This document shows, one piece after another, positions 24,501-52,913 of a stretch of 64,000 nt of DNA; the first letter of the stretch is position 1, and each line of letters begins with the position of its first letter. Both the position numbers and the translations under genes were made by a program. The notes beneath the pieces are model-generated. The model saw nothing but the letters and a program-made list of their open reading frames with translations, was not told the DNA's origin and made no database searches. The stretch comes from Posidonia oceanica (taxonomy: Eukaryota > Streptophyta > Magnoliopsida > Alismatales > Posidoniaceae): positions 8,791,001 to 8,855,000 of the forward strand of contig JAZBRS010000059.1 of the NCBI GenBank assembly GCA_037176725.1. Reading direction: 5' to 3'.

Positions 24501-24698
24501 TTTTATGGTTTACAAGAGCAGATGATTAGCTGGTTTGGAGTTTTAGTGCATATAGTGGGAGTCACGTAGCTGTCTACTGCAGGTTCTTGGCATTGATATT
24601 TGTTAATAGTCCAGTGGTTTGTTGTAAAATGTTATATTTAATTAAATTTTAAATTTGTTGGGCTTTAGGTTTTGTTGGTAGCGACTCGGGTTGGTACA
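21543..24698 (+). repeat. 5' LTR of the gypsy element (3156 bp)
   Basis: Begins TGTAATACCC and ends GGGTTGGTACA, four bases before the PBS. It contains a (CT)n-rich segment (21745-21830), a GC-rich part and repeated GGCCGTATTAGGCC words (24050-24130). It is about 700 bp longer than its partner because of the 22617-23325 segment. Confidence 0.9.
22617..23325 (+). repeat. 5'-LTR-only segment rich in CGGT/ACCG palindromes
   Basis: The 3' LTR jumps at 30690-30700 from the sequence before this segment to the sequence after it. Within 22925-23220 are many half-palindromes such as GGTCTGCCGATTT, GGTCTACCG, GACCGGTTAGCCGGTGG and CGACCGGTGGG. Whether it was lost from the 3' LTR or gained in the 5' LTR is not resolved. 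Confidence 0.75.
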
Positions 24699-24702
24699 GG
24701 TT

Positions 24703-24714
24703 TGGTATCAGAGC
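24703..24714 (+). other. Primer-binding site (tRNA-iMet)
   Basis: TGGTATCAGAGC, a perfect match to the common plant site complementary to initiator tRNA-Met, four bases after the 5' LTR. Confidence 0.95.
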
Positions 24715-24871
24715 CCATGTTCAGTAGGTTGCATTAGCGTAGGAGTGGTCAGTCTAGTGACTACATAGGAAATTGCATATCATGATTGAGTCTACACTTG
24801 TTGTTTGGCATATATTGTTGCTTGTCTTATTGACCGTGGTGCAGGTTTTGTTGCTTCTCTCCTAGTTTAGC

Positions 24872-27800
24872 ACGTCTCGCTGTGGCCGTCGAAAGGATAA
24901 GGCCCTTGCTGAGGAACCTAGCTCTCAAGAGGAGAGTGGTTGGCAGGGCGTGCGGACGGAGTTGCGAGGTTGGATGCGCGGGATCTCTGAGGCTTTTGGC
25001 AAGAGTGGTCCTGATAGAGCGTCTGAGGGAGATCCATGGCTTCGCCAATTGAGCAAGCTCCACCCGCCGACGTTCAAGAGTACTGGCACTCCTGAGGAGA
25101 GCGAGGCATGGCTGCGAAGGATTGAGAAGTTACTGGATAGTTTGGCGTGCGCAGAGGAGCACTGGGTGCGGTTGGGTGCCTTTCAGCTTCACGGCGATGC
25201 CGATGAGTGGTGGAGAGCCATTAGGCGGCTGAAGTTCTCGGATTCTATCACAATCGACATCAAGTGGAAGGACTTCGAAGCTGCATTTCATGAGAAGTAC
25301 TTTTCGAGTCATTTGAGGAGCCGATTCGACCGAGAGTTCCGGAGTTTGCAACAGGGCAGGATATCTGTGGCTGAGTATGAAGCCTCTTTTGCCCGGTTGG
25401 AGAGGTTCGTTCAGGCCTTTAATTCTGAAGAAAGGCGGGAGGAGAGATTTCTAGAAGGCCTTCAGCCCAGCTTGAGGGTGAAGGTGATGGACTGCCGCTG
25501 TGTGATGGTAGCTGAGGTGGTCCAGATGACTTCCCGCTTTAAAGAGGAGTATAACCAGTATGTGAGTGGTCACTACAAGGGGAAGGCCAAGTTGCCATTC
25601 ACTTCCCGATTTTCTGTCTCTAGTCCACCGAGTTCCAGTGGCATGAGTAGCCCAGGGAAGAGAAAGAATGACAGATCTGGCAATGGTTCTGCTGCCCGGC
25701 GTAGTTTTGCTCGAGGTGGTGGTGCTGGCCCTGCCTCTAGCGCCCGGCACAGCTTTGCAGGAGTTGGTAGCACCGGTCCGAGTCAGGCTGCTTCGAGTGG
25801 ACAGGGTAGCGCCCAGTGTTTCCAGTGTGGCTAGGCGGGTCACTTTGCAGTGCACTGCCCTCGAGCACAGCAGGTGACAAATCGGAGCGGAGTAGTGTGC
25901 TACAACTATGGGAGATCGGGACATGTGCAGGGGATGTGCCCGGATCCTCCCAAGCGAGCGGGGAATGTGCCATAGCAGCGGACCCGGGGGCGTGTGTTTA
26001 CCGTTTCAGCTCTCGACTGTGGATCCTTTGGTAATGTTGTAGAGGGTAAGTCTCCGTAGTTTCCTTTGGGTGGTGTGACCCATTGTTGCTGTTGCTATTG
26101 CTGTTGCTGTTGTTGTTGTTGTTGTTGTTTCCTTTCCCCTGTAATATGAACCTTGCTGTTTAATGGAGATGCTGTTGTTTGTGCTTTGGCCTTAGGTTCT
26201 TATCTTGTGGTGGGCCGAATGGCCAAAGTTCTGTTTGACTCAGGTAGCACTTTCTCTTTTGTCTCTAAGTCTTTTGTGGCTGAGCTGGAAGATGTACCAG
26301 TCAGGTTCGCTTTCCACCTGGAAGTGGTAATGCCGCTGGGTGAGCACAGTTTGGCGTGGAGATATCTGCCTTCTGTCAATCTGGAGCTGAATGGCTGAGA
26401 GTTCGATGCCACTCTCATCCTCATGAGTATGAATGAGTATGATATTATCTTGGGCATGGACTGGTTGGGCCAATATTCTGCTTTGATCGACTGTACTCGT
26501 AGGAGGATTTTCTTTGGTGCTGTTGAGGCTGGTTCCTTCTTTGTGCAAGGTGTGCGCCAGGGTGAGCCTAAGCTTGTGATTTTTGCTGTGAAGGCTTACA
26601 AGTCTTTGCCTCGGGGTTGTGTGGGGTACCTCGCTAGTGTAGTTACCTCTCCTTCTCGGAGTCGAGTGTTCACAACATATCTGTTGTGTGTGAATATCCT
26701 GACGTTTTCCCGGATGATTTGCCTGGCATGCCACCTCACAGGGAAGTGGAGTTCTTTATTAAGCTGACTCTGGACAGTGGTGCTGTTGGGAAGAATCCTT
26801 ATCGGATGGCGCCAGCTGAGTTGCGGGAGCTCAAGGCCCAGCTGCAGGAGTTGCTGGACAAGGGATTTGTCAGGCCAAGTGTGTGTCCGTGGGGAGCGTC
26901 TGTCTTGTTCGTTCGTAAGAAGGATGGTTCACTCCGGTTGTGTATAGACTATCGGATGTTGAATTAGCTTACAGTGACGAACAAGTATCCCTTGCCCCAT
27001 ATGTAAGACCTATTTGACCAGTTGCAGTCTGCCTCCGTCTTCTCGAAGATTGATCTGAGATCAGGATATCACCAGTTGAGGATTCATGATTCAGACATTC
27101 AGAAGATTGCCTTCCGGACGCGGTATGGCCATTTTGAGTTCGTGGTTATGCCCTTTGGCTTGACCAACGCCCCTGCCGCATCCATGGAATTGATGAACCG
27201 GATCTTCAGGCATTTCTTGGACCAGTTTGTGGTGGTCTTTGTAAACGACATCTTGGTCTACTCCTCAGATGAGGCAGCTCATGCCCAACATCTGAGGGCG
27301 GTGTTGTATGTTCTGAGGCAGCACTAGCTGTACGTCAAGTTCTCCAAATGTGAGTTCTGGTTGAGGGAGGTTATGTTCCTTGGCCACCTTATCTCTGGAG
27401 ACGGCGTCAAAGTTGATCGTGCCAAGGTTGAGGCGGTCAGTAATTGGCAGAGACCCAAGACTGTGTCTGAGATTAGAAGTTTCCTGGGATTGGCAGGTTA
27501 CTACAGGAGGTTTATCAGGGATTTCTCTTCTATTGCTTCATTCCTGATAGCTCTCACCAAGCAAGGGGTTCCGTTCATTTGGGACTAAGGTTGTGAGGCG
27601 AGTTTCAATGAGTTGCAGGTTCGTCTGACTTCTGCTCCTGTTCTGACCTTGTCTTCTGGTAGTGGTGGCTTCACTGTTTATAGTGATGCTAGTGGTGTTG
27701 GTTTGGGTAGTGTTCTGATGCAGCGTGGCAATATTGTGGCTTATGCCTCCCGTAAGTTGAAAGACCACGAGAAGAACTACTCTACCCATGATCTTGAAAT

Positions 27801-29578
27801 GACTGCCGTGGTGTTCGCGTTGAAACTTTGGCGACACTACCTATATGGGGAGTAGTTTGAGGTCTACACGGATCACAAGAGTCTGAAGTATATATTTACT
27901 CAGAAGGACCTCAACATGCGGCAGCGGAGGTGGGTGGAGTATCTTAAAGACTATGATTTCAGTTTGTCCTACCACCCTGGAAAGGCCAACGTGGTCCCCG
28001 ATGCTCTGAGTCGGCGTACGCACGTCATGACTAGCCTGATGGTCAAGGAGTGGACCATGTTGGAGGATCTGGTTAACTGTGGATTCAAGAGACTACATCG
28101 GGGAGCAAGCGGTGCCTATATGGCGAGCTTGTCTGTTCGTCCCAAGTTAGTGGAGTTCATTATTGCTTGTCAGCAGACAAACCCCTTCTTTCAGGTGACT
28201 GTTGAGAAGTTGCGCGCTGGGAAGCGCCGGACTTGTCTCTTGGCGTACATGGGGAGCTGAGGTTTGATCAGCGATTGTTTGTGCCCCAGTATGAGGAGGC
28301 CAGGCGGAGGTTACTCGATGAAGCTCATAGATCTAAGTACACCGTCCACCCAGGATCCACGAAGATGTATCGGGATTTAAAGCAGAATTTTTGGTGGGCT
28401 GGCATGAAGAGAGAAGTTGCTGACTATGTGGCAAGGTGTGTGACCTGCCAGCTAGTGAAGGCAGAGCTCCAGAGACCTGGAGGAACTCTTCAGCTGTTGA
28501 GTATACCGGAATGGAAATGGGAGCACATCTATATGGATTTTGTGACTGAGTTGCCGCATTCTCCGAGGAAGAACGACACCATGTGGGTGATCGTTGATTG
28601 GCTAACCAAGTCAGCTCATTTTCTTGCTATCCGAGTGAATTTTCCTTTACGGTGGTTGGCAGAACTGTATGTATCGGAGATCGTTCGGCTGCATGGTGTT
28701 CCTGTATCCATTGTGTCTGATAGAGACACGTGATTTACCTCGAGATTCTGGAGGACTCTGCAGGAGGCTTTTGGTACGGTACTAAATTTTAGTAAAGCTT
28801 TCCACCTCAGTCGGATGGTCAAACAGAGAGGACTATCCAGACTCTGGAAGATATGTTGAGAGTTTGTGCCCTGAATTTGTAAGGAAGTTGGGAGGACCAC
28901 CTGCCATTGGTTGAGTTTGCTTACAACAATAGCTACCACTCTAGCATCGGGATGGCACCATACGAGACTCTGTATGGTAGGCCCTGCAGATCCCTAGTCT
29001 GCTGGAGCGAGGTAGGTGAGCGGCAGCTTCTTCGTCCGGAGTTTGTACAGCAGTATGCGGACAAGGTGGACTTGATCCACAGAAGGCTTCTGACTGCACA
29101 GAGTCGGCAGAAGAGTTATGCTGACTAGAGGCGGAGACCGTTGGAGTTTCTGGTGGGAGACTTTGTGTTCTTGAAGGTTTCACCGACCAAGAGCGTGAAG
29201 AGGTTTGGCAAGCGTGGGAAGCTGAGTCCCCGCTATATTGGCCCGTACCAGATCACGCAGAGGGTTGGTGAAGTATCCTATAGATTATCCCTACCACCAG
29301 AGCTATCGGCAGTGCACAGCGTGTTCCATGTCTCCATGCTGAGGAAGTGTCTGGCTGATGTTTCACAGGTGATCCCTGTTCAGCCAGAGGTGCTTTAGGA
29401 AGATCTCTCCTTTGTTGAGGAAGCTATCCAGATTGTTCATCGCAGAGAACAGGTGTTGCGGAATAAGGTGATTCCACTGGTTCTTGTGAGATGGCAGCAT
29501 CATGGATCAGAAGAGGCCACTTGGGAGCGCGAGGATGGTATCCTTGCTCGATACCCGCATCTTTTCGCTTACCCTTAA
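24872..29578 (+). pseudogene. gypsy gag-pol polyprotein, broken by stops and frameshifts
   Basis: Gag is open to 25831 (WLRRIEKLLD, then EFRSLQQGRISVAEYEASF). A zinc knuckle follows, with a stop inside the first box (25832) and Cys-to-Tyr in the second. The protease has VLFDSGSTFSFVS (about 26229). RT spans about 26760-27570; its catalytic motif reads FVNDILVYS where FxDD is expected (GAC to AAC at 27247). RNase H starts at [11 protein letters not shown] (27678). Integrase has the HHCC finger (about 28325-28450) and catalytic Asp residues (28535, 28723). A chromodomain-like tail ends at TAA 29576. Stops at 25832, 25973, 26057, 26147, 26396, 26965, 27004, 27325, 27586, 27853, 28731, 28880, 29126 and 29396 fit C-to-T changes. 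Frameshifts lie near 28225 and 28795. Confidence 0.9.
26082..26130 (+). repeat. Trinucleotide run (TGC/TGT)n in the gag-protease linker
   Basis: About 15 TGT/TGC triplets between the zinc knuckles and the protease, read as poly-Cys in the gag frame. A slippage-prone run in dead coding sequence. Confidence 0.85.
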
Positions 29579-29612
29579 TTTCGGGGGCGAAATCCTTTTT
29601 AGGTGTTTATAA

Positions 29613-29830
29613 TGTAACACACGGGAACTTATTTCCTTGTAATTATGCTTGTTTAATGAATTCCTTGGCTTTGGTAGGGTGTTATTGGCCTTGCGGGCCC
29701 CACTTGAGTTGTTGTGGGCCTCATCTGTGGTTTGTGTGGGTCTCCACCTGTATTATTGTGGTGGACTCCCACTTGTGGTGGTTGGTGGGACAGATTGTGG
29801 TCTGGTCCCTGGCTTGTCTCTCTCTTCCTC

Positions 29831-29880
<50 letters not shown>

Positions 29881-32073
29881 ATCTCTCCCTCCTTCCCGCT
29901 CTCTCTCTTTCCTCCCCACCCTCTCCCCCTCACGTGCCCTCTCACTCCTCTTCCCCCGCGCGTGCATCCTCCCTCCCCCCTCACGCGCGCCCTTCTCTCC
30001 CCCTCACCCTTGTGCCGCTCCTCCTCCTCCCCTCCTTCCCGCGCCGTGCCCTAGCCGGCGGCGCAGCCTCCCTCCTCCCCCCTCCCCACCCGTCTCTCCC
30101 CATCCTTCCTTTCCCCTCCCTCCTTTCCCCTTTCTCCCTCCCTCCCGTCCTCTCCTTCCTCTTCCTTTCCTCTGTCGGTGGCGATTGCTGGTGGTGGCCG
30201 GCGTGCGGTAGCCGACGGCGGTGCGGCGAGCTCTGGTCGTCGTACCGGTGGAGCGGCGTGCCCGTGTGCGGTGCGTGGAGCTTGATTTGCGTGTGGATCG
30301 TCGGTGGACGGAGGTTATCTCTCTGTCCCAAGATACACGTCTCGCCGTAGGAGCCTAAATATTTAGATATTGCCTTGCATGCGTCCTTTGCCATATTTTG
30401 TATGTTATATTTGAGTTTGGCAACTTTTAGGGATTTATATGCATTTAGGCGAATTTATTTGGCTTCAGTAGGTTTATAGCTTGAATGTTGTTTTCCGCTG
30501 TTTGATGAGGTTGTATGCTCTCAAACGGCTTGAATATGATTTAATTGTGTACCTTGCCATGTTTATATGCTATGGTAGAGGTTTGGTAATTTTTAGAGAT
30601 TTATTATAGTTTTTAGCCGAATTTATGGCCAAAATGACTTAAATGCTATTATTGTGATTTCCCGGTGAATTTTAGTGTTTTGGGCCTCGGATTGAGAAAA
30701 CTGAGGAAAATATGAATGGCTTGCAAATGGTTTTGCCGAAATTTTCCGTGGCTGAAAACCTATGAGTTGTGTTGCCTGGACCCGGGGATGTGACGGCGTT
30801 CCTAGTGTGTCGCAAACTTCGCCTGGGTTGAGGTTTTGGAGGTCGGAGTGCCGGCCATACCTAGCGGTATCGTAGCAGCGGACTCGGGAGGTATGATACT
30901 CCTGCGTAATTGGACGTGATACCGTAGTTGTTACGGGTACAAGACTCGCCTGGTTTTGCGTGCTTGCTGAGCCTAGGGGTTGGCGCCTCTAGTGGTTCAG
31001 GGCACTGGTGCTGGCTGAGCCTAGGGGTTGTAGCCTCTAGTGATTCAGAGTACTGAGTTGAGGTCGACGTATATTAGGCGTGCCCTGTGGTTTGTCCTGA
31101 GTGAGGACAACTTGTCCAATTGGGGTGAGTAGCTTTCCCTGGTGGGGGATCGCTTTTGAGGCGTCTCTAGTGACGAGATGCTGGGACGGACACGCTCCTC
31201 CACAAGGCGGGTGTTCGTGGCAGTGCAGTGAGCTACAGGGGTGAGTCCCTGGCTACTGCTTGAGGCCAGATCGGTTGCTTGGCGTCAGGCAATACGATCA
31301 GTTGTGGTTTTGTGCTCGTGGGGCTGTGTTTTGTTGTTGCTGGCCGTATTAGGCCTTGAGCTTTGCCTGAGTTTGGGCTTTGTGAGTTTTGCTGTGGTTT
31401 GGGCCATATTGGGCCAGTTGCTTTCCGCCTGTGTATGGCGTGATATTGTGGTTTGTGTTTTGGGCCGTATTAGGCCAGATGTTTTCCTCCGCCTAGTTAT
31501 GGCGTGTGGCTTTGGTTTTGAGCTTTTGGCCGGTGGGTTATTATATTGATTGAGATTTAGTTTTGCAAGGTATTTCCGCCTTGTCTTCGCCAGTGGACCG
31601 AGTGTTTTCCCAGCCTGAGGGGTTGGAGGATTTTGATTGGTTTTGAGGTTTGGACCGGTGGACCGTGGCTTTATGAATATTTTTGTAAACGCCTGTCTTC
31701 CCCGATTTTAGCTTGTGAGCTTTGGGAAGGGTGTTTTATTGATTATATTGCTTGTTGTGGACCCAGATTTTGGGGTTTTACAGGTTGTGCCGTATTTGAG
31801 GTTTTATACCGGTTTCTCGCGTGGTTTTTGCGAGGTGTGTGCTGAGTGACGATTTCTAGGTCACGCACGTGTGCTTTGTGTGGTTTGCAGGTGCAGATGA
31901 TTAGCTGGTTTGGAGTTCTAGTGCATATAGTGGGAGTTACATAGCTGTTCACTACCGGTTCCTGGCATTAATATTTGTTGTTAGCCCAGTGGTTTGTTGT
32001 AAAATGTTGTATTTAATTAAATTTTAAATTTGTTGGGCTTTAGGTTTTGTTGGTAGTGACTCGGGTCATTATC
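29613..32073 (+). repeat. 3' LTR of the gypsy element (2461 bp)
   Basis: Begins TGTAACACAC and ends GGGTCATTATC at the target duplication; the usual terminal CA is lost. It matches the 5' LTR along its length except for the missing 700-bp segment. The CT run (29830-29890) is longer than in the 5' LTR. Confidence 0.88.
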
Positions 32074-37263: not shown

Positions 37264-40200
37264 TCAGCTGCTAGATCCTGCCCCATTGGGCCTGATTGAT
37301 TCTAAGAACTGAACCACCTCTGCCATGCTTGGCCTCCGGGAGAGATCGTCAGAGGTGCAAATCAGACCTAACTTGAGAACCTGAGTGAGTTCGTTCTCTG
37401 CAAATCCATGCAAGCTCCTATCAAAGCAACTCAAAGCCATGCCCCTATCTATCAGCAACCTAACATAATCACAGAGCACTACTACCTCAGACGCTGCCGT
37501 ACTTTCCACTGGTCTCCTTCCAGTCACAATCTCCAGCAAAACCACACCGAAGCTATAAACATCGCACTTGTCGCTGAAGCTCAGGCTTTGGGAAGCAAGC
37601 TCTGGTGCTACATAGCCGACTGCAGAATGGAACCTAGTTGGTGTTCGGCCTCCAAACATAGGCAGCAGCTTTACTAGCCCATAGTCGGAGAGTTTCGGTT
37701 CATATTTCTCATCCAGTAGTATGTTAGTCGATTTGATGTTGAGATGAAGTATTTGAGGCCTGCAGTCATGGTGTAGATAGGCAAGAGCTCTTGCCGTTCC
37801 AAGGGCAATAGCAAACCGCTGGGACCAATGCAGGTCATTACTGCCTCTACAATAGGGGCCTTGTCCATGGAGATGCTGATGGAGATTTCCATTGGGAACA
37901 AACTCAGACAGAATCAATTGCATTGCTGATGACCAGTAGTAACCTTGGATCTCTACAAGATTTGGGTGCTGCAGGCTGCCCAACCGGCTTATCTCCTGCT
38001 CAAATTCAGCCTGGTTCCTGATCCATCCAATAGTTTCAAGCTTCTTTACGGCAATGGAAACCCCACCTTCAAAACTAGCCTTGTAAACAGTCCCAATTGT
38101 GCCACTACCAATTACAGAGTCCTTGTCAAGCAGCGCTTTCGTGCCTGTCTCCCAATCTTCATACCTTGAAGGAAGGGTCTTGCTGAAAAGCACAAGCTTT
38201 CCAATGATAGGATTTAATCCCGTTGAAGGAGTAGGTGTAAGGCTCTCAGATACCAATATTTCCTCCTTTTCCTTTATCGCCTTTTTTCTCCTCCTTGTCC
38301 TGATGTTTATAACCGTAATTAAACAAACTCCAGCAAGAATTGCAGCAGCTGCAACAATAGCCATGATGGCAGAAATACTCAGAAGTCTAGCTCTCCGTGA
38401 GACATTTTCTCGGGTTACTGGGCACTGAACATCGAGTGGAGCTCCACAGAGACCTGAATTGTGGAAGAATGCCGAGGCTCCGAATTTTTGGATGGACTGA
38501 TCAGAAGGGATCTTGCCAGAGAGGTTGTTGTAAGAAAGATTAAAATGTGTCACTTGTGTCAGATTCCCAAGTGAGGTGGGGATGGAACCATTAAGTGAAT
38601 TCTCAGATAGGTCGAGGGTTTCAAGACCTGAGAAGTCGCCAAGCGTTGCTGGGATGTTTCCACTGAGCTGGTTCCCATGCAGGTCAAGGAGCTTGAGGTA
38701 GGTCATGTTGTAGAGAGTCCAAGGTATTTCTCCATTCAAATGATTATTTGAAGCATCGCTGTAAATGAAAGGAACACAAACTATCAATTGTCAGTTGTTC
38801 CAAAATACTACATGTTATTCTACCAAAATGCAGAGGTAAGATATTGCTGTCCTATAGACTGAAAAAATGTATATTTTTTTGCAAGAATGATAGCAGAAGA
38901 AGGAACCTGAGGTCGCTATTGGTAAAAATAGGACCTTGAACCATCAATGCTCAGCTCTTCCAAAATTACTACTGTTTTATTAAAAATAGGGATTTCTGCT
39001 CTATTAGGTTTAGCTGAAGAAAGAATGCAAGGCCGCTAATTGCAATCACAAGAATCCAATCTGTGAGACCCAAATTCTCCAAATCACTAGTTTTTGTTAA
39101 AAATGTTGCAGAAGTTACTGTTCTATTGTTAAAAAAAGTCATGTTTTTTTTCAAGGACTCGCAACTGAAAAAGGAATTTGAGGTTATTAATGGCCACCAT
39201 TGGCATTGAAAATCGCTACTTTTCCTAAAAAAAAGCCTTGCAGAATTGCTATTACTGTTCTATAAATAGGAAAATTTAGTGTGTATTTTCGCAGAACTCA
39301 CAGCTGAAGAAGGAATCTGAGGTTGCTGATGTCAAACGGGATCTCGCCGGAGAGATTGAGTCCATGCAAATCCAGAACCATGAGCAGCTCCATCATCCCG
39401 ATCGCCGGTGGAATCTCGCCTCCAATCATTGGGTTATTCTCCAATTTAAGAATGGAAAGTGATTTCAATTCTCCAATTTCTGCCGGAATTCTCCCCTCCA
39501 GCCGATTTGAGGACATGCTCAAAACTCTAAGCATCCTACAACTCGCAATGCCGGGGCCAATATCTCCGCTCAATTGGTTGTTGGAAACATCGAAAAATTC
39601 CAACTTCTCCCCACAAGACAACACATTTGGGATCAGCCCATTGAAGCCATTGGACGAAACATTGAAGTATGTGATGTTGGGCAGATTGAGGAGCTCAAAT
39701 GGCACAGAACCATCAAAGGAATTGCTCCCAAGGTCAAACAACTCCAAACTCCGGCACCCGGAAATCTTATCCTCCACAGTTCCAGTCATTGAATTGCTTC
39801 TCAAAGAAACATATGCCATTCTAAGCGGTGCGCAGATCTGCGACGGGAAGTTCCCGGTAATCGCATTGAAGGAGAAATCGATTCCTTCAAGATTTAAGCA
39901 ACCAGAAAAATCCGTCGGCGCCGGACCGGAAAGCAAGTTATGCGAAAGCGACACGAACCTCGTTCTGAAGCAAGACTCGAAAATCTCCGGTGGGACTGCA
40001 CCGGAGAAGTTGTTCCACGAGAGGTCGAGGAGGCGGAGGCTCGGAATGCCGCCGAGGGCAGCGGGGATTTCGCCGGAGAAACTATTCCGGCTGAGGTTCA
40101 GCTTGAAGAGCGTGGGAATGGCGGCGATTTGCGGCGGGATGGGGCCGGAGAACCGGTTGTTGAAGAGAGAGATGATCTGGATCGAGGGGAGAAGAGCGAG

Positions 40201-40491
40201 GGAAGGCGAGAGCGTCCCGGCCACGTCGGTGGAGTGGAGGTGGAGCTTCTCGACGGCGCCGGAGGTGTTGCAGGTGACGCCGGCGAAGTCACGGCATGGG
40301 TCGGCGCTGAAGGAGGAGGACCATGAGGCCAAGACTCCACTTGGGTCATCGGCGATTTGCGACTTGAACCCGAGGAGAGCCGACTTCTCCCCCGCCGTCG
40401 CCGCCGAAACCCCAACGCCACGGAGGCGGAGCACCAGAAGGAGCAGGAACAGCAGCACTAGTGCGGCGTGGGCATTGCTGTTTCTTCCCAT
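37264..40491 (-). CDS. LRR receptor-like kinase (At1g12460/At1g62950 type)
   Basis: Two exons, 40491-39302 and 38758-37264, with a 543-bp GT-AG intron, join to 2685 bases (894 aa). There is a signal peptide (about 1-30), an LRRNT motif (LLGFKSQIADDP, then WSSSFSADPCRDFAGVTC), about 15 to 17 leucine-rich repeats (about 80-480), a membrane segment (about 522-549) and a kinase domain. Kinase landmarks are GSGTIG (about 614), the ATP-binding Lys in AVKK (about 635), HLN in place of HRD (about 735), and DYG in place of DFG (about 755). HLN and DYG are, as I recall, shared by this subfamily, so it probably signals as an atypical or weak kinase. Start: first ATG, directly before the signal peptide. 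No breaks seen. Plasma-membrane receptor of unknown ligand. Confidence 0.93.
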
Positions 40492-40619
40492 TGTGGGTAC
40501 ATGAGAAAGAAGGTCAGCTCACCGGCGGAGGAGGGGAGCTGTATCTTTTTCTTCTTATTCTTCTTCTTCCTCCTCCTCTCACCATTTCCACCAGCTGGAA
40601 AGAATGCAGTAGTAGTAAC

Positions 40620-40650: not shown

Positions 40651-43600
40651 TTCTTCTCTAGATGGGCTGTGTTGTGATCATGTGAGTGAACCAGAGAGGG
40701 AAAGGAGAGTGCTGGTGGATGGTGGGGTAGATTAGTACCGGTAGTGGGTAGTAGTAAGCATGGGAAAGTGGTGATGGGAGCTGAGGTAGCATGTGGCATG
40801 TGCCTCCTCTTCCTCCTTCCTTCCTTCCTCTCTCTAAAAACTACAAATTTAGGAGAGAGATTGGAGAAGAACAGAGGAAAGGGTGAGGGGAGTAGGGGAC
40901 TCTGGTGGTGGTGGTGGTGGACTGGTGGTGGTGAAGTATTGTTTCTGCGCTGCTTTCTGTTTTCCATTGTATTAATGTTGTTCAACTGCCACCACCACCT
41001 ACCCATGGAAGGGGGAAAATGGTGGTTTGTTTTCACATCATGGATTCATGGGACCTTCTTCCTTGGTTGGAGACAAAAAATTTCTCTCATTTTTCTATGA
41101 TTGCCACAAGAGCCTTGGCCCTTGGCGAACTTCTAAAATAGAGGTTGGACCATACATGACCTGTGAGAATAGCCAATCAAGTAGTGAGATTGGAGTAGAC
41201 TTTTTTCTTACTTTGTTATAAATCAAAGTATGCGTGACACATGACCTAACACATCACAGCCGCTTAGCAACTTGAAATGTCGTTTAAACTAGAGTTAATT
41301 GCAAAACTTGGCAAGAAAGCAACCGAGGACCTCCCCAAGAGGGTTTGTTTTGGAGCACGTTAGTGTATGCCTTGTCCATCTTTTTTCCTTTTTTTTTTTT
41401 TGCAAATTTTAAAGAAGAGTGCAACACGAGGTCTTCCTAGGAAATCATCCATTCTAATACTTCTCTCGTCCAAATACATTTAACTACAAAATTCTAATAG
41501 AATCTAGTGTTCTAGTGTTGGTATGATCATACACTATCTGAAAAATCAAGACTCCAAATCTAAATGGTTGATTGGTTACGGAGGACTCTCGATACTTTTG
41601 GTATCTTCCAAAAAATAAAAGATAAAGAGGAGCATTGATGTTTAGGGATCACTAACTTGAGAAGAAGAGGAAGCACTATGAATAAGGCTTGGCCTAACTC
41701 GTTCCAATTTCTGTTAAGAAGGTTCATAATGGTCAGAAAGTGGTCTTGAGGATCATGAGTTGAGAGACATATAGAGAAAAATAAATGATATATATTTCCT
41801 GTTGTCAAAACTAACGTCAAATGAAACAATCTAATAGAAGTGATAAATATTTTATAGAGAATATACCTATTAATTTTCTTTTCTCCAAATTACTTCAGTG
41901 CATCCAAACAAGGTGAAGCAACATAACTTTATTCCTGATTCTTTTCTCTCCAAGTCTCTAGTGATTCGTTTTCAAAAAGATCATTCGAGTGAAGATAAAA
42001 ACTAAGGCTGCGTTTGTTGGGAGAGTTCATTTAGACGAGCTCACATGGATCATGTACTGTAACTACTTCCAACAAGAACGTACTCCATCCTACTTCCCGT
42101 AAGCTCACTTTTCCTTCATCATCTAGGTTAAAATGAGAGTGCACCTGTTTACATGAAGAAACATGTTTGATGGAAACTAATGCAGCGGAAGCAACTGGAT
42201 CTTCCAAACAAACGCAGCCTAAGAGTGTTCCTTTCCAAGAGGGAAAACATGAGTAAAGGAATTCGTTTGTCCAGGGTAAAGATCCTTCAAATGTGAGATT
42301 TAGTGTCATTCTTGTTCACATTAAGTGGCCATGGATCTGGTCACCTCCCATCATAGACAGAATGGAGAATCAGATACAGGATGATCAGGTCAATGCCATG
42401 TTCTTATTTTTCCCAAACCTTTTCTTTTTTTTTTTCTTTTCTTCACACCATCCTGTTTGAGTGTTTGGGTTCCTTTCATTCATTTTATTATTATTGATTG
42501 ATACGACTACGGATCTTTTATTGTACTTGACTTTGTTTTAAACTATACGTTGGAAAGATGAACGATTAGTGTGATCAACGGCACGGATTGCACCTACACG
42601 TAAAAACCTGTCTCTTGAATTAGTTGTATCATGTTCTACAGATGATATTTATGAATCGAACATGCAACCTTGATTGAAGTGAAGGTGAAAGGAATAAATT
42701 AATCTGAAGTTGTCGGTCCTTCTAGAGTTCGAAAACAATTTGTGATTAGTTTACATCGTGGCGCACAACTACATTAATGAGTTTAAGTGTTGTTATCTTC
42801 AACAAGGGGGACAACATAAAATTTAGTTTATATGAAATAGAAGGATTGGTCAACCAAATTAAGTTTACCACGAAAATAAATCTAGATGCGCATGACTAGA
42901 TTTTCATTCACCGGTAAACAAAATTTAAAAAACATGCTTGACTTCATATGGTAGAACCGTAGGAGTTACTCGTCAAAGTTTTTAAGCTTAAGTAAATTAA
43001 TATATTAAGAAAAATTCTATGATACTCATAGTATTATTTCATAAAGTTATAATCATCTGTTAATAGTTATAATTATTTATTTATAATTATAAATCTTACT
43101 ATCTATATATTTAAATAATTAATTAAAATTAACAATTTCGACATCTACCGAAAATTTTTAATATCCATGTGATACCATAAACACACACCCATATATCAAT
43201 CATATCCATAAGAGTAAAACCACCTAGAGTCCTCGTTTCCATGTGCCATTCTCCCCAAAGAAACGTGACAAAAGAAAATGTTAGCAAGGACCAACGAACT
43301 GTTACTCTTACCCTTTTGCTGTTGAACCCTAATATCCTAACCCAATTGGACCATGATGACATGTATTGTACAAATAGTTTGTCACAGTACTCACAACACG
43401 TGCACTCTGCAGCATTACAGTTATCTTTACCTAAACCCCTGTAGATTATAACATAAAAGAAACAGTTGAAGTTGAATATTGTTCGGACATTGGTTTATGT
43501 GACGATTCTCATGAAGTGACCTTACAAGGGAAACTACCACATTGACCAAGAACATGCTCTTCCCTAGACATGGCAAATGGGCCGGGTCGTCCGATCGGCA

Positions 43601-45506: not shown

Positions 45507-45744
45507 TGTAACGACCCCAATGTCGTTACCTCTCAACCTAGCTACCATTTTTTTTCTTTTTTTTTTATCTTATTAGCATTCATGAACTATAGAACTAAAT
45601 TCTCACAATTACTATAAAGCAGAAATAAAATAACTTAAATTGCTCACTTACCCAGAACCCTTGATATGTGGCAGTGTGACTCATTTTCTATATGCACTAG
45701 CAACTCCAGTTCCTATCCTCACTACTAGAAAAACAGAGGACAGA

Positions 45745-46070
45745 TGTCCTCGCGAAGTCCTCCCTATGTCTTCGCAATGTCCTCACTAATGGCATTCGTG
45801 AGGAAATTGCGAGGACAAAAAGTCCTCGCCAAATGCTACGTCGTTAAAAGCCATTTGCGAGCAAATTTCCTAGCTAAGTCCTTACTAAAACTTTGCGAGG
45901 ACTTAACGAGGAAATCAAGTCCTCGCAATGTCCTCGTAATGTCCTCGCAATATCCTCGCAAAGTACACATTATGTTCTCGCAAAAAGAAATTTAAAAAAT
46001 TTAAAAAATAAAAATTGCAAGGACTTAGCGAGGAAATGTCCTTGCTAAGTCCTTGCAAATTATAAATAAA
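45745..46070. repeat. Left subterminal repeats of the CACTA element
   Basis: At least a dozen GTCCTCGC or GCGAGGAC words in both orientations, presumed transposase-binding sites. AT-rich sequence follows to about 46350. Confidence 0.85.
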
Positions 46071-46388
46071 AAATAAAAAAAATTAAAAAATTAAAAAAAA
46101 TTAAAAAAAAATTAAAAAATTAACTTGCATATATTCATGTTTACATGCATCAAATTGCACAAAATGGTATCAAAAGTGAAAAAGTAGCTGATTTTAGATA
46201 TCTAATTTTCCTTTTCACTTTCTTTGTAATAAATGTATACACATAAAAAACTCATTAATATTTTTTTATTCAAAAATGCTAAGTGTCGCATCTCAAGCTC
46301 TAGCCTCCTAACACAGCATAGCTACACAAACTGAAATAAAATCAACACTTGTACTCTACAAGATCATGAAGTATCTTGTATCTTTTAC

Positions 46389-47700
46389 CTTCTCAATTTC
46401 AGCTTGATCTTTTCGTGTAAACCCACTAGCAGCAAGCTCCTTATCAAGGAAGCCTGCAGACTTTTCTATTGAAGAAAAGGAAAGTCTGCAACTTCCATCA
46501 TTCTCTGAATCTGACTCGTCACAGTCACCAGCACTATCTTGAAAAGAAAGGTTCAACCTGGAAAAAGCAAATAGTAAGTAGCTAAAGATACAGGTGCCAA
46601 AATAAAAATGGCAAACGAAACAAAGCAGATTCTCAACAACAACCTCTTACTAAAGAACTTATAAATGCATTCAACATCTCGATCAAAGTACCTGGGAAGA
46701 AAAGTAATTGTCTTCTCAAAATACAGTTCAAACACCTGCAAAAAAAGAGATTAACGATGAAACAAAAGACAAATGCAACAAGTTTGAAACTTCTATATAG
46801 GTAAGTTCATAAAAAAAACGTCAACAAAAACAAAATGCCGAAATACATTAACAAAAGAACAAGGTACCACATACATCTGAGCGTTGCGATGGGAAACAGA
46901 CACCATTTGAGGGAAATCAATCAATGTAATCTTCTCATTGTCATCAATCTAAAACAACAAAAGGTTAAGTTAAGCTCAAGAAACAAGTTCATGCTAGCGA
47001 GCAAGCACATTGTGTTGAATAAAAATATGGAAAACACTATGACTGAAATGTCAAAAGCAAACAAGATAACGTGAGTTAAATTAACTCTGTTAAAAAAATA
47101 ACAATATGCAAAATCACATGAAGTCACAGGACATGAAATACCTTTTGCCAACAATATCTCCCTAAGAAACCCAATCCAAAAGATGTAATAAACTACAAGT
47201 CCTAACAAGTCTGAGAATCGTTTCAAATACCACATATGGATTTTGCAGTTCCCTTACTTGCACCCTGCATTTTACTTTTCATCTTCAGTTGTTAAAAAAA
47301 AGTATACATTCTCTAAATAAGCAACACAAGTACCTAATCATGCTTTAGAACTGAGATGTATAGATCTTGACAGTGGTTTCTATAACTAATACAAGATTCA
47401 GAATGTGAAAGAATGTATACGATATTCTACTTGATTGCTAAAAAAATCAAAGTGAATGCACTTACAGTGGATAACCTTGCACAAGGGACATCACCACGCA
47501 ATGCCGATTACAGTCCACAGCATTTGGAACAGGAAATCCATGCTCTCCTAAAGCCTGTACATTTTTTCAATCACGTATTTGCAAACTAAAGTATGAAAAA
47601 CATAAACCCAAGAAGGCAATCAAAAAACCTTGATAAAAGCAAACTCTTTAAGTGCAGCAAGCTGAGAAAGATAAAGCCAACTTAGCCCACCAATGTTCCC
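46389..47700 (-). pseudogene. RIO2 (fragment): RIO2 kinase gene fragment captured by CACTA
   Basis: Exons read right to left: about 47700-47629 (LSWLYLSQLAALKEFAFIK), 47554-47466 (GEHGFPVPNAVDCNRHCVV, then MSLVQGYPL), 46948-46875 (DDNEKITLIDFPQMVSVSHR), 46691-46644 (YFDRDVECIYKFFSKR) and 46557-46389 (LNLSFQD..., AGFLDKELAASGFTRKD). These are segments of RIO2, the atypical kinase of 40S ribosome maturation, in correct order with GT-AG borders. The exon with the catalytic HGLIHCDFNEFN region, expected between 47466 and 46948, is not recognisable, and N- and C-terminal parts are missing. Not functional as a kinase. Confidence 0.88.
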
Positions 47701-48094
47701 AATAGGTCAAGAGATTTCTGTCCTGGGATGTATTCTATGTTCTAGAATAAGACAATGGGACTCATGTAGCATGATGCACCACACATACAACAGAATATAA
47801 GAACTCAGAGAGATGTCTAAGTCATAAAATCATGTTACAGTAAATAAATGAAGTCTGACTTAGGTAAAGAATTCAGAAGTCCACTGATTTTGGAAGAATG
47901 GACAGATAAACCTGTGGTCCTTAGCTTCTGTTACCCAATGGTCTTGAATTTCACTATTTTGTGCAGGACTTCATTTTGGAGGACCCAGAAAACATGACGA
48001 ATTGTTGTATCACTCTTTTGTCCTTATTTTGGTAGCAAAAAGAAAAGCTAATGGCCTGGAGAAACATGAAGGCAAAGGTATTCACAGCTCTTAC

Positions 48095-48269
48095 CTCTTG
48101 AAGGAAGTCCATGCTCTTGCTTGAATGAGTTAGAAAAAAGAACTAGATCTCTAATATCTAGGTTAGTGAAATCTAAGATCTTCTTCAGAAGCCAGTAGCA
48201 GTTGGAATCTCCATAAACAGCAATACGACCAGCACCGACCTGTACAAGTCCAAGAATCGGAGAGTCCAC
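48095..48269 (-). pseudogene. S1P (fragment): Site-1 protease (SBT6.1) exon captured by CACTA
   Basis: One exon with an AG acceptor (CTGCAG) and a GT donor (GTAAGA) reads DSPILGLVQVGAGRIAVYGD, then SNCYWLLKKILDFT and GLPSR. This matches the region downstream of the subtilase catalytic core in plant site-1 protease, the Golgi protease that cleaves membrane-bound bZIP factors. Relative to the family, about nine residues between SNC and YWLL are missing. The rest of the gene is absent. Confidence 0.85.
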
Positions 48270-48624
48270 CTGCAGAAGTTCTTTAATATTTGAGTGCTGA
48301 GTTTAAAAAATAATACTATAAACATAATCTCAAAATCTAATTATTCTCCTGATTTTTGTCCAGTTTTCATAGACACTAGAAATATACTTTTTGTTCTCAA
48401 TAAAGTTAATATATAATTATATATCATTTAAGAGCTAAGACTTAAGATGAGCTTGATAAATGCAAATAGAGTGGGTCTTCTCACATCAACATTAGATGAT
48501 TATGAAACATGTACATCCCCCAATCTTTCAAAAAAAAAAGAACCGATCTCAATGATTCCATATTAATCTATGACAGTCCCCCATCATTGAGTACATAAAA
48601 TAAGGATTCACAGAAAATACTCAC

Positions 48625-51114
48625 AGTATCTATAGAGAAGACTGACAGATGAATCTGCTGTAATCGAGGCTCTAGTTGAGTGAACAGAATATACATGCAA
48701 ATCTTTGTAGCATGGTTCTAAAATACTAGTGTTAGGGTCACTATTCAATGCAGTATCCATCATTGAATGTTCGCTACGGACAATGTCAAATAAAAGGTCT
48801 CTTTGTTGATCATTTTCTCTGCCAAATATTCAGATACGAAATAAATATCAGAAAATTAATATGGCAGGGAAAAAGGAGAAAAGGTGGACTTTAGAATGAC
48901 AAACAACTGACAAAGACTCTTACAAAATACAGATACGAAATTTATATCAGAAAAACAATATGGCTGGGAAAAACAAGAAAAGTTGGACTTTAGAATGACG
49001 AATGTCTGACAAAGACTCTTACAAAAACAAGGAATAAATACTAACACAGAGAACTAAAATTTTTAATTAGTGAAACAGATGTAGAGTGTTGATAAGATGT
49101 TAATGATAAAATAGTACATCCAATATTAAAATCAACAACTGCAATCACATTCAATTAATGAATTGAGTATATAATTACCGAATAACAAGATAAAATCTCA
49201 GACAAAATAATAATAAAAGATCTAAGGAGTGGTACCGTTCCAGCATGATAACATAGTGGGAATCAGTTTGTCGTGCCCTAACACGTGACTGAACATAACT
49301 TCGAACTGTTTTTGGCAAATCAAAACGTACTACACATGAGCAATTTGGCACATGAATTCCCTCTTCTGCCACATCAGTCGTGAATAACAAATTGACCTAT
49401 GTAACAATCCCATTTTTCAGGTGTTTACAGGTAGCAATCAAAACTTCAAAGTGAATCAGTTATCCAACGACAGTACCTTTCCAGAACGAAATAAGTCAAA
49501 TGTATCCTTCTGCAATTTTGGAGTTAGTGCATCTATGGATGAAGCTCCCCCGGTTAAATAAGAAACTTCAAGATGAGATAAGTAGTCGACTCTCTTAACA
49601 AAACGTCGAAGTACTTTAGCTGTGATTTTTCTTTCTACAAAAATTAGACAGAGGACTTGTTTTGTTTTCCTGGGCTAAAAAATAAGAGCATAAAATTCAC
49701 TAAACACTCAAAAGCGACAAGGTGAGAAATCTAGGTTATATAATAGAATAACTCTCATACCCAAATGATTGAAAAAGCTGGATCAACTCGTACAACTTCG
49801 GAGAAATGTAACCCATAGTTACTGCCTTCAAATAGCTATCTTCTGTTGTCAGCAACCTTTCATGGTCTGGAAAGCAAAAAAATATGTCAAATTTCAACAA
49901 ATAAAAAGACAAAATAAACCATACAAGATAAACAAAAACAAACAGCAGAAGCTTGCAGTGGACCAATAATCAAGTAAACTGAAAAAATTAGTAAAAAATT
50001 CTAGCATGTATAATTATAATTAAAGATGTCATGAGAAAATTGAATCCGACAATAATTAATTATCTTCAGAAAACACAAGAAATTATCATACCAGATTAAT
50101 ATAATTGAAAAGAAGAAAGGAAAAGATCAAAGCAATTCAATGAATTCTGAATCTTGTGATATAGGAGATGAATTGGCATAGGCCCGTTAAATTGGCTCCA
50201 ACCTATTTTCACCGGATCAAGTTACACAGGTTACTAACTTTTTTGGCATTCAAAGGGAATTACTTAAATCCCATGTAGAATGCCTATAGAGAATATTTTC
50301 CATCTTCATTATCTAGATTTTTTTTAGATTCTAACATATGCTCAGGTAGTTCAAAGCTTTTCTCAAGTGATATTCTAATTTGAGCATTCATAGAGTTAGA
50401 AGTATAAACTAGTAAATTACTATCTCAAGTATCACTATACCTCATCCATCAGAGGGCACATTGTCAACACTTGTCTCAAAGTATAAAGGTAGAATAGTAA
50501 AGTGCTAAAGAAGTTATTTGGGAATGAATGATAAGAAACTGAAGACGTGATGAGTTGTGTTAGCTGAGGGAAGTAGATTAAAAAATACAAAAGAAGAGGA
50601 AAAATGAAACTGCATTCAAGGAATAAAGTTGAAGTGCTTGTGTCTTACTAAGATCTAACATAATTTTGGCTACACTAGATTCAAGGAGCTATTAGAATTT
50701 CATGTCCTACCATGTGGCAGAGTTTCTTCAATTACTCGCAGCACTTCCTTCAGAAAATTGCTACAATGCTGCAAACCACTAATAGAAATATCACATCTCT
50801 CCAAAGATTGTGGGTCCAAAATACTTTCCATACAAATTTTAGTGGCCTGATATAACCAAGACAACATAAATCAGAAATAGGAAATATGTCAAAAAAAAAA
50901 AGGAAAGAAATTTCTGAGAGAAATGGTACTTTCCAATGGCCTATAACAGAGAAATATCTTATACCTTTCTGGCACAAAAAAGACCAAGTTTTTCTAGAGA
51001 ATCAGAGATCTTGACATGAAAGCTGGATAATCGCTTTTTTGATGCCTTCAGTGCATCACAACTATCATAAAACTGACATGTTGAGTCTTGCAAATGGTCG
51101 ATAGAGGTATCATG
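48625..51114 (-). pseudogene. DCL3 (fragment): DICER-LIKE 3 gene fragment captured by CACTA
   Basis: Six exons in order: 51114-50965 (LSSFHVKISDSLEKLGLF), 50846-50711 (LQHCSNFLKEVLRVIEETLP), 49866-49761 (YISPKLYELIQLFQSFG), 49669-49477 (VLCLIFVERKITAKVL, then ALTPKLQKDTF), 49396-49236 (LLFTTDVAEEGIHVPNCSC, RFDLPKTVRSYVQSRVRARQ) and 48818-48625 (DLLFDIVRSEHSMMDTALN, ITADSSVSLLYRYC). All have GT-AG borders and matching phases. They span the helicase C-terminal domain to the start of DUF283 of Dicer-like 3, which makes 24-nt siRNAs for RNA-directed DNA methylation. Helicase motif VI reads SRVRARQ instead of the expected SRGRARQ. The DEAD part, PAZ and both RNase III domains are absent. Confidence 0.9.
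48831..49029. repeat. Direct tandem duplication of about 99 bp in a DCL3-fragment intron
   Basis: 48831-48929 and 48930-49029 both start CAGATACGAAAT and share GGACTTTAGAATGAC and ACAAAGACTCTTACAAAA. Confidence 0.85.
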
Positions 51115-51257
51115 CTATTAATAAGAAAATGCAAGACTTTTAAACCAAGAGATGAAGATAATGAACAATCTTTGCAAAATGATAGAAATAAATGATAGAA
51201 ATAAAGAGATGAAGATAATGAACAAGCTTCAAACTAAAACGCAAAATAATTGCTCAC

Positions 51258-51850
51258 CTTAGATTTTGAAGTCTTGCACTTTCGAGCAAAACCCGATCGT
51301 GTTCTTGTTGAGATCCCCTCTGAGCACGCACGCATTCAACACGGACGACCCGTCCCAGATCGTCACCTGGCCAGTGAGCACGACGTTCAGGGTGACGTAG
51401 GCGTCGACGGCGATCTTTGGGAGTCATTGTCCGAGGGGGATGATCCTCCTCTAGCCGCGGTAGTCCCATTTGACCCGGTCCGGAGACGAGGTGGTCGGCG
51501 GGGTCGGGTCGGTGAAAGCGTGGTGGGGAAGAGGGAGGAGGAGACGCTCACATGGAACACCATCGAAGGAGCAGAGGAGTCGTCTAGGGCAAAGAGGATT
51601 GGGATCTGAAGAAGAAGAATAAGAAGAAGAAGGAGGGGAAGAAGAAGAAGAAGAAGGGCGAAATGGTTTCGGTGGTGGACTTGAAGGAAGGGGAGGAAGA
51701 CGAAGGGGGGTAGGGTTTAGGTGGTGTTTTTGGAGGAAGGGAAGGAAGAAGAAGGGAGGAGGGTTTGGTTTCGTCGGTTTGGGAATATGTCGAGGGATTC
51801 GGGGAGGACTGGGAAAGTAACAAAAGAAAAAAAGGACAAAGGCCTTGTGT
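51258..51850 (-). pseudogene. GAMMACAL (fragment): Gamma-carbonic-anhydrase-like first exon captured by CACTA
   Basis: The minus strand gives a Ser/Pro-rich targeting-like N-terminus, then PDRVKWDYRG, then after TAG the residues RRIIPLGQ, after TGA LPKIAVDAYVTLNVVLTGQ, and WDGSSVLNACVLRGDLNK. This is the start of the left-handed beta-helix of the plant gamma-CA-like subunits of mitochondrial complex I. The two stops sit at expected Gln and Trp positions. It lies nearest the right end of the CACTA element and may include the source gene's leader. A GT donor (GTGAGC) follows at 51257. Confidence 0.82.
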
Positions 51851-51869
51851 GAGAACAATTTTCTCAGTT

Positions 51870-52020
51870 TAGCGAGGACTTAGCGAGGATATGTCCTCGT
51901 TAAGTCCTCGTTATAATCTTGCAAGGAAATATCCTCGTTGTTTCCTCGTTATTTGTCCTCGCTAAAATATTGCGAGAACTTTTCCTCGCAATTTCCTTGC
52001 TAGGTGTCCTCGCAAAATGT
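51870..52020. repeat. Right subterminal repeats of the CACTA element
   Basis: About ten GTCCTCG/GCGAGGA words in both orientations, same family as the left end. Confidence 0.85.
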
Positions 52021-52913
52021 AGAATTTCTAGTAATACTTGCACCTGGGAAAAACAGAAACAAAGCACACGTAAGTGACCACTCAATAGGTCATCTAGCAC
52101 ACACCCCAGCTCGACAAACAACGTCGAGAAAACAGGCGTAACCATGCCACAAGCAAACGAACACAGGCATCTCTCCTACATGCCACAGCAGAGCATACAT
52201 CACTGCCCAAACAAAGCATACCACTGAAAACATGCATTTGAAATCATCTTTTCTCTTTTCCTTTCAAAACCATATGCATGCTCTTTTCAAAATCTTTATG
52301 CATACTTGAAATGACCACACTAGCCAAATCAAGCCCCAAAACTCACGGTCTGGTCCATCACACTCCTGGTGCGGACTACACAACCAACCATGTTTAAATA
52401 CCCTCAATAGCATTCAAAACACACACAACAACACAACAAACATCAAAACACAAAGCCAGTGTTGAGACACTGCTCAACCAAACCAATGCGCCTCACTAAA
52501 GCAGGACCTACGCCCCACAGGCGTGGCCACAAGCAACAAACAATCACACTCACAAACAAAAGGTCGTCACTCGGGCCTAAGCGACGACACCTAGCCACAA
52601 GCAGTCCACCGAGGCGCTACCACGGTGTCCCTGCACTGCCATGGTCCACTATCCTATGGAGGAGTGAACGGTCTCGGCCAACAAGCCTCAACAAGCCAAC
52701 CACACACTAGAAGGCTAGTCCTGTCTCTCAGCAAGACACCACAAGTTATGCCTAAGCGCCCTGACTAAGTGCTCCAAACCCTTGGGGCTCCTCACCCCCA
52801 GGCTCAGTCCACACCAAACAGTCTCGGTACCCATACTAACTAGGGTATTACGTCCAGCTACTCAGAGGTCTCATACCCCTTGTGTTCGCTGCCACAATAC
52901 ACTATGTACAGTT

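Follow-up and report, generated by a model that had tools for sequence, protein, structure and literature searches.

Does a string of host gene fragments, packed in one orientation between the ends of a transposon, form a new chimeric gene, or is it passenger cargo? This question is raised by a stretch of 64,000 nucleotides from Posidonia oceanica (assembly GCA_037176725.1, contig JAZBRS010000059.1, positions 8,791,001 to 8,855,000), referred to as the window, whose own numbering is used below. The original prediction had placed a CACTA transposon at 45720-52036, carrying fragments of genes resembling gamma-CA-like (gamma carbonic anhydrase-like), DCL3, S1P and RIO2. It also proposed that transcription from the gamma-CA-like leader could produce a transcript spliced across all four. 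The segment is a real CACTA element without a transposase gene; it is no new gene but belongs to a known kind, of which it is a well documented case. It is best explained, and very probably so, as a hybrid non-autonomous Pack-CACTA element that moved as a unit and whose passenger cargo decays neutrally.

The boundaries of the element are supported from several sides. The left terminal inverted repeat is an exact CACTACTAGAAA, and the right one, which reads TATTACTAGAAA, is two C>T changes apart from it. The paired ends recur in sister copies of the element (described below): the right repeat is an intact CACTACTAGAAA in five of the eight sisters and matches at 11 of 12 positions in the remaining three, and the sisters L009 and L010, among others, match at 12/12 positions at both ends. 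The 12-mer with up to two mismatches occurs six times in the window versus 6.2 expected, so it is not rare when taken alone. The right end was accepted because it lies just outside the last subterminal repeat, and because of the empty-site and sister-copy tests. The predicted subterminal repeats are borne out. The exact GTCCTCGC is found nine times in the window, always inside the element, with 0.56 occurrences expected upon shuffling. When one mismatch is allowed, one copy lies between the two arrays listed in Table 1, and 28 are found in the other 57.7 kb. If GTCCTCGC is taken as original, 12 of the 15 departures from it in both arrays are C>T or G>A.

For the empty site, the two flanks were joined, minus the element and one copy of the target-site duplication, and used as a query. 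This query matches a dispersed repeat (5223 initial candidates), and in each of the 40 copies that were scored the alignment runs across the junction. Empty copies of this host repeat were fetched, and five of five read TATCCT/GCA, with the slash at the junction. The target was therefore CCT, and the right-hand CTT has one C>T change. The flanks themselves (45520-45719 and 52040-52239) are part of this very high-copy repeat.

CACTA-type terminal repeats, a 3-bp target duplication and bidirectional short subterminal repeats assign the element to the CACTA (En/Spm) type. Such elements are mobilised by a transposase of the TnpA/TnpD type. As predicted, no transposase domain was found in the element (Pfam, six frames, E 0.01); at this threshold, only RIO1, Helicase_C and MBTPS1 domains were detected, all on the minus strand. 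The relative L031 likewise has no transposase domain. With host coding fragments between its ends, no transposase gene and several copies sharing ends and cargo, the element is a Pack-CACTA. Two other classes were considered and rejected. Helitrons, which have neither target duplications nor terminal inverted repeats, are excluded by the presence of both. Pack-MULEs, which have long terminal inverted repeats and a target duplication of about 9 bp, are excluded by the 12-bp ends and the 3-bp duplication. The left-end pattern has 0 matches in viral contigs.

The cargo modules follow each other from right to left in the order gamma-CA-like, DCL3, S1P and RIO2, all on the minus strand. PDB, Pfam and donor loci agree with the predicted identities and with the common orientation. 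The DCL3 module matches PDB 7vg2 (E 2.1e-56), with DCL4 well behind at 5.6e-31, and the RIO2 module matches 7vbt (E 5.6e-34). The gamma-CA-like module is closest to CAL1/CAL2 (7a23 and 7ar7, E 2.1e-33), whereas a chain named CAG2 - CA-like reaches 2.3e-8 and chains named gamma carbonic anhydrase only 1.8e-5. For S1P (MBTPS1), the PDB match is weak (8uwc, 0.0013), and Pfam assigns MBTPS1_4th at 1.6e-11. For RIO2, S1P and DCL3, donor loci in the same genome (2.96 Gb in 80 contigs), about 97% identical in DNA, bear out these identities. The genome is that of a flowering plant, with several monocots among its closest relatives by protein. The RIO2 donor contains, in order, exons for residues 1-330 of a 505-residue relative; residues beyond 330 were not found within the fetched stretch. 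The S1P donor, on the plus strand, carries MBTPS1 and Peptidase_S8 domains on one strand (MBTPS1_4th at E 6e-135), and its last exon is open through the stop codon. It matches the window at 97.5% over 47690-48121 and at 89% over 48115-48400, where the window has a 30-bp gap of its own. In the DCL3 donor, ordered exons cover residues 199-1489 of the Phoenix protein. The search for donors and the comparison of introns, both suggested with the prediction, thus gave a clear answer for these three genes: their introns match as well, so capture took place at the DNA level. About 318 bp of DCL3 intron (49900-50216) are present in the window, L010 and L033 and absent from the present donor gene.

The gamma-CA-like module has a different background. 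Its first part has 89 matches genome-wide (all 107 candidates scored), most of them with in-frame stops; the same kinds of stops are seen at numerous further loci, and C48 holds a gene whose frames are open. The module is high-copy, and many of the 89 matches are probably right ends of the transposon clan described below. When compared to 47 orthologues of at least 225 aa (32 of the 79 matches were dropped for being short or, in one case, by name), 10 of 47 invariant columns are changed in the gamma-CA-like piece versus 0-2 in leave-one-out controls. The corresponding values are within those of the controls for DCL3 (5/51 versus 0-8, 14 chosen orthologues) and RIO2 (3/82 versus 1-5, 13 chosen orthologues). 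Because of this decay, gamma-CA-like would be the oldest capture; the ages are rough since the orthologue sets differ.

All 22 candidates for the RIO2-S1P string were scored. Nine loci, one of them the window, have it unbroken, and each of these also has DCL3 and gamma-CA-like, with order and strand unchanged. We refer to these copies as subfamily A. A genome search for copies that share both ends and cargo had been proposed, with a lack of paired ends as the refuting outcome; eight copies with both were found. Six of these eight sisters have identical target duplications on both sides (TCT, ATA, CTT, GTA, AAA and ATC). L015 and L017, which are 52 kb apart, share CCC/CTC and are best read as a single insertion followed by a segmental duplication that included the surroundings. 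Individual copies have internal losses: 49147-50608 is missing from six of the eight sisters, and some stretches between DCL3 and gamma-CA-like that sisters or relatives keep are absent from the window.

That the same four-donor cargo occurs at eight other loci agrees with the predicted transduplication by one element. Alternatively, and this was the second refuting outcome named with the prediction, four separate gene-bearing insertions might have become nested at one site, and some modules are indeed found separately in other elements. The same string between one pair of ends at eight further loci speaks against this, as does the single empty site, which spans the whole element; with internal duplications not systematically searched, we still regard nested insertions as having next to no chance of being correct.

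The preferred reading, movement as one unit, leads to the question of how the unit was assembled. Subfamily A belongs to a clan of elements that share ends and modules. Group B (L016, L019, L020) has the left end and RIO2, followed by other cargo. In L019, Pfam identifies a GH31 enzyme piece and a piece of a retinoblastoma-related protein (RBR) in this cargo; by alignment, L020 has both regions, and L016 has the second only, without GH31. Group D (L033, L034) consists of the left end, DCL3, gamma-CA-like and the right end, without RIO2 and without S1P. Group C (L025, L026) has another part of the same DCL3 gene (98.4% identity to the donor gene for L025), a RIO2-S1P junction piece and a gamma-CA-like end. 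Group F (L021, L024) has RIO2 pieces plus other cargo, and group E (L031, L035) has other cargo. The cargo of L021 and the extra cargo of L015 have no Pfam matches. L031:188-7115 is a Pack-CACTA with a CAT/CAT duplication, located about 2.8 kb past the stop codon of the S1P donor gene, and its cargo comprises pieces of a protein kinase, RPN7 and Tim10/DDP.

The two ends of subfamily A have conflicting histories. Over the first 330 bp, A is 89.8% identical to B, 87.2% to F and 86.6% to D. Over the last 150 bp, it is 93.0% identical to D, 85.8% to C and 58.5% to B. In FastTree analyses, D, C and E are split from A, B and F at the left end (support 0.994), and B is split from the rest at the right end (support 1.000). 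The alignments were made without L017 and L023 (both ends) and L021 (right end). The left end thus groups with RIO2 elements that lack DCL3, and the right end with DCL3/gamma-CA-like elements that lack RIO2 and S1P. Most likely, the window element is a Pack-CACTA of subfamily A that arose by fusion of a B-like left half with a D-like right half. The filler between the S1P and DCL3 modules fits as the region where the two parent types would meet: 48400-48535 is also found in subfamily B and 48513-48619 also in subfamily D. Excerpts of two papers (PMC13317346, PMC8903248) describe the excision of neighbouring elements as one, resulting in fusion, as a proposed capture route.

Has this assembly become a gene? 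According to the prediction, a nascent chimeric gene would be transcribed from the gamma-CA-like leader and spliced across the four donors, perhaps with a product. In its favour, all modules are in one orientation, and the DCL3 exons encode 313 open codons with a Helicase_C domain. There is also a precedent, as excerpts of the report on the soybean element Tgm-Express1 (Zabala and Vodkin 2007, PMC1947982) describe cassette exons that are spliced when the host gene transcribes through the element. The predicted GT-AG exon borders were confirmed in part. They are present on both sides of all six DCL3 exons and of four of the six RIO2 exons. They did not hold for RIO2a, which is truncated at its 5' side, for RIO2c, which lost its donor site through a deletion of about 0.2 kb, for the gamma-CA-like piece and for the S1P donor site. 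A GT donor site at 48094 in S1P was discarded as false, since the donor gene places it inside the last exon, beside a deletion of about 0.3 kb.

The other observations disfavour such a gene. Two in-frame stops interrupt the gamma-CA-like piece, the supposed leader, which also lacks splice borders of its own. The last S1P exon and its stop codon lie mid-way, between DCL3 and RIO2, and are followed by about 0.26 kb that are 3' untranslated region by position before RIO2 starts; a single transcript spliced across all four donors is therefore doubtful. Judged by eye, the DCL3 frame does not continue into that of S1P. In all nine A copies, the deletion of about 0.3 kb relative to the donor disrupts the S1P frame, and the window alone among them has the additional 30-bp deletion. 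In RIO2, the deletion of about 0.2 kb at 47204 removes one exon (VHLAEHGLIHCDFNEFNIM); all nine A copies share it with L019 and L020, whereas L016 does not have it. The RIO2 frame is shifted or stopped at four of the nine A loci (L011, L014 and the segmental-duplicate-like pair L015/L017). Among the 120 protein matches listed of 620, no single one covers two of RIO2, S1P and DCL3, and S1P is without a match (gamma-CA-like was absent from the query). In a stretch of DCL3, QSRGRAR, the window has valine in place of the glycine. L010, L018 and L033 retain the glycine, and no such stretch was found in the remaining seven of the 11 DCL3-bearing elements analyzed. We take QSRGRAR to be helicase motif VI.

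Divergence among the copies points in the same direction. For eight A copies (without L017) and positions 45720-49147, which span RIO2, S1P and one DCL3 exon, the mean pairwise divergence amounts to 0.0228 for exons, 0.0207 for introns plus intergenic sequence, and 0.0445 for the end. Exons diverge as fast as introns, which indicates neutral decay; the purifying selection expected on the exons of a functional chimeric gene is not seen. Upon this comparison, the open DCL3 frames were dropped as a hint of selection. Of 311 substitutions that could be polarised (majority in at least six of eight copies), 189 are C>T or G>A, which would fit methylated DNA. When the window is compared to the donors, exonic and non-exonic differences are 13/492 and 28/1062 for RIO2, 6/314 and 9/404 for S1P, and 19/940 and 47/1321 for DCL3. 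The lower exonic value for DCL3 may reflect constraint on the side of the donor gene. Nonsynonymous to synonymous changes are 13:6 for DCL3 and 6:7 for RIO2. Overall, we consider a nascent chimeric gene highly improbable.

Several points count against a neutrally decaying hybrid. The 6:7 ratio for RIO2 is compatible as well with weak constraint or with substitutions in the donor, and the neutrality test covers only RIO2, S1P and a single DCL3 exon. The right-end tree mixes A, C and D with little support, and other nodes are weaker. The left-end gap between A and D is modest, which leaves room for gene conversion of ends. Modules are distributed over groups A, B, C and D in a network-like pattern, with the filler at 48400-48535 present in both B and A, so that the order of capture is only partly resolved. 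The gamma-CA-like gene on C48 was identified at the protein level only. Our confidence in the hybrid was lowered slightly, since support for the end comparisons behind the fusion is mixed and the neutrality test covers only part of the cargo.

A scenario for the neutrally decaying hybrid can be outlined. The left half (the end with RIO2, then S1P) would stem from a RIO2-bearing Pack element, and the right half (DCL3, gamma-CA-like and the right end) from a DCL3/gamma-CA-like Pack element. The two may have been fused through the tandem insertion route. A transposase acting in trans would then have mobilised the hybrid as a whole, which reached at least eight independent sites; internal pieces were lost from individual copies afterwards. 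The window copy landed in the high-copy dispersed repeat, where it may have been silenced and methylated. Its decay proceeded mainly through C>T changes, and these by now affect the right end. The captured exons appear to be passengers, with no sign of selection.

The uniform orientation extends beyond the window. Twelve of 12 captured segments in the clan read from the right end to the left, as judged by Pfam, PDB or donor match: RIO2, S1P, the A/D part and the C part of DCL3, gamma-CA-like, GH31, RBR, protein kinase, RPN7 (below the curated Pfam cut-off), Tim10/DDP, biotin/lipoate ligase and a SUVH4-like piece (below the Pfam cut-off, but with a PDB match at 4.5e-10). L024 has in addition a weak match to NFACT-R (E 0.0019, below cut-off), which was not counted but is oriented likewise. 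A sign test gives about 0.0005; neighbouring segments may have been co-captured, so that there may be fewer independent events. No domain was detected on the opposite strand of the window, L019, L021, L024, L031 and parts of L015 and L033; the scan left out the opposite strand of L025 and all of L016, L020, L023, L026, L034 and L035. Internal AT skew is positive overall in 20 of 20 elements examined, many of which share modules, with one 800-bp piece of L023 being negative; the ends of L023 and L026 are poorly fixed. A limited literature search returned nothing on the orientation of CACTA cargo or on the capture of DCL3.

DCL3 recurs in the clan. Of 31 candidates, all scored, 25 loci including the window carry its helicase region besides the donor. 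A match of 57 bp is seen at five more loci, which carry the other part of DCL3. Eleven of the 25 and two of the five were fetched, the former with their ends and including the window. The DCL3 donor has 802 exonic 24-mers, and exact matches to 651 of them occur in these 11 elements. In addition, the DCL3-bearing relative L033 has a SUVH4-like SRA piece (L033:2867-2971; PDB SUVH4 E 4.5e-10, Pfam SAD_SRA 5.9e-5, below the curated cut-off), with no counterpart detected in the rest of the fetched loci L009-L035.

It is tempting to speculate that such cargo weakens host silencing and thereby aids the spread of the elements, with the DCL3 and SUVH4 pieces giving rise to small RNAs or decoy proteins. 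The number of loci with DCL3 pieces, the exact 24-mer matches and the SUVH4-like piece could be read in this way, and excerpts of a study on rice (PMC3459959) describe a miRNA from a CACTA element, miR820, that targets DRM2. However, DCL3 does not form an inverted repeat in the window element, the majority of the other donors found are unrelated to silencing, the SUVH4-like piece is confined to one fetched locus, and the gene category was picked after the fact. We judge anti-silencing cargo to be very unlikely, marginally more so than the chimeric gene. A broader version holds that the clan takes up host genes in one fixed orientation and amplified pieces of silencing genes, and that directional transcripts or small RNAs interfere with DCL3 and SUVH4 and so favour its spread. 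We give it the same slim chance.

The passenger-carrying hybrid has close counterparts among known elements. Four donors in 6.3 kb had been called unusually rich, a view that does not stand: in the excerpts of its report, Tgm-Express1 is a CACTA element of 5.7 kb with five donors (PMC1947982). It resembles the window element in size, in its exon and intron pieces of unrelated host genes and in its canonical splice borders. As far as these excerpts go, the two differ in that chimeric splicing of Tgm-Express1 with its host gene was shown by reverse transcription PCR, whereas the window element is known from DNA alone; the latter resides in a dispersed repeat, and both parent-type relatives and three donors were traced in its genome. 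Pack-CACTA and Pack-TYPE elements, in the portions of PMC8903248 and PMC13317346 that describe them, also have non-autonomous CACTA ends and coding DNA of several loci; here, by contrast, both parent-type relatives and the hybrid coexist, with conflicting end histories. The miR820 element of rice is similar in that its sequence bears on a host silencing gene, OsDRM2; in the excerpts of PMC3459959, miR820 is reported as a proven regulator, whereas the DCL3 and SUVH4-like pieces are sequence matches only. The locus thus offers a near-complete case history in one genome, with both parent-type relatives, hybrid, donors, empty site and decay. The conflict between left-end and right-end histories makes the proposed fusion route testable, and the uniform cargo orientation, together with the recurring DCL3 (two parts) and SUVH4-like pieces, raises a clear question about silencing.

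Table 1. Features of the Pack-CACTA element, in window coordinates.
Feature	Position	Strand	Remarks
Left target-site duplication, CCT	45717..45719		supported by empty host-repeat copies
Left terminal inverted repeat, CACTACTAGAAA, exact	45720..45731	+	
Left subterminal array, GTCCTCGC in both orientations	45744..46055		16 copies with at most one mismatch; spacing often 11 bp
RIO2 module	46128..47680	-	six exon pieces and introns; donor L022 (C46), 96.9%
RIO2 exon pieces	47629-47679, 47466-47554, 47204-47264, 46875-46948, 46644-46691, 46389-46557	-	
S1P module	47690..48400	-	intron end, last exon from 48269, stop near 47954; donor L027 (C64)
Filler	48401..48619		between S1P and DCL3 modules
DCL3 module	48620..51204	-	six exons and introns; donor L032 (C1), 96-97%
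DCL3 exons	50965-51114, 50711-50846, 49761-49866, 49477-49669, 49236-49396, 48625-48818	-	
gamma-CA-like module	51224..51860	-	inside of one exon (51271-51480) and sequence upstream of the exon
Right subterminal array	51872..52013		8 copies of GTCCTCGC with at most one mismatch
Right terminal inverted repeat, decayed to TATTACTAGAAA	52025..52036	-	
Right target-site duplication, CTT	52037..52039		CCT with one C>T

Elsewhere in the window, long direct repeats pair 21543-22618 with 29613-30696 (89%) and 23325-24691 with 30701-32066 (92%). By eye, the region 21543-32066, with gag/pol-like open frames between the repeats, is probably one long terminal repeat retrotransposon. The open frames at 8406-11574 presumably belong to an ACC-synthase/aminotransferase-like gene, and those at 37264-40518 to what we take, by their look, to be a leucine-rich-repeat receptor kinase. 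A 5S rRNA-like match (58.5 bits) is located at 41416-41534 on the minus strand.

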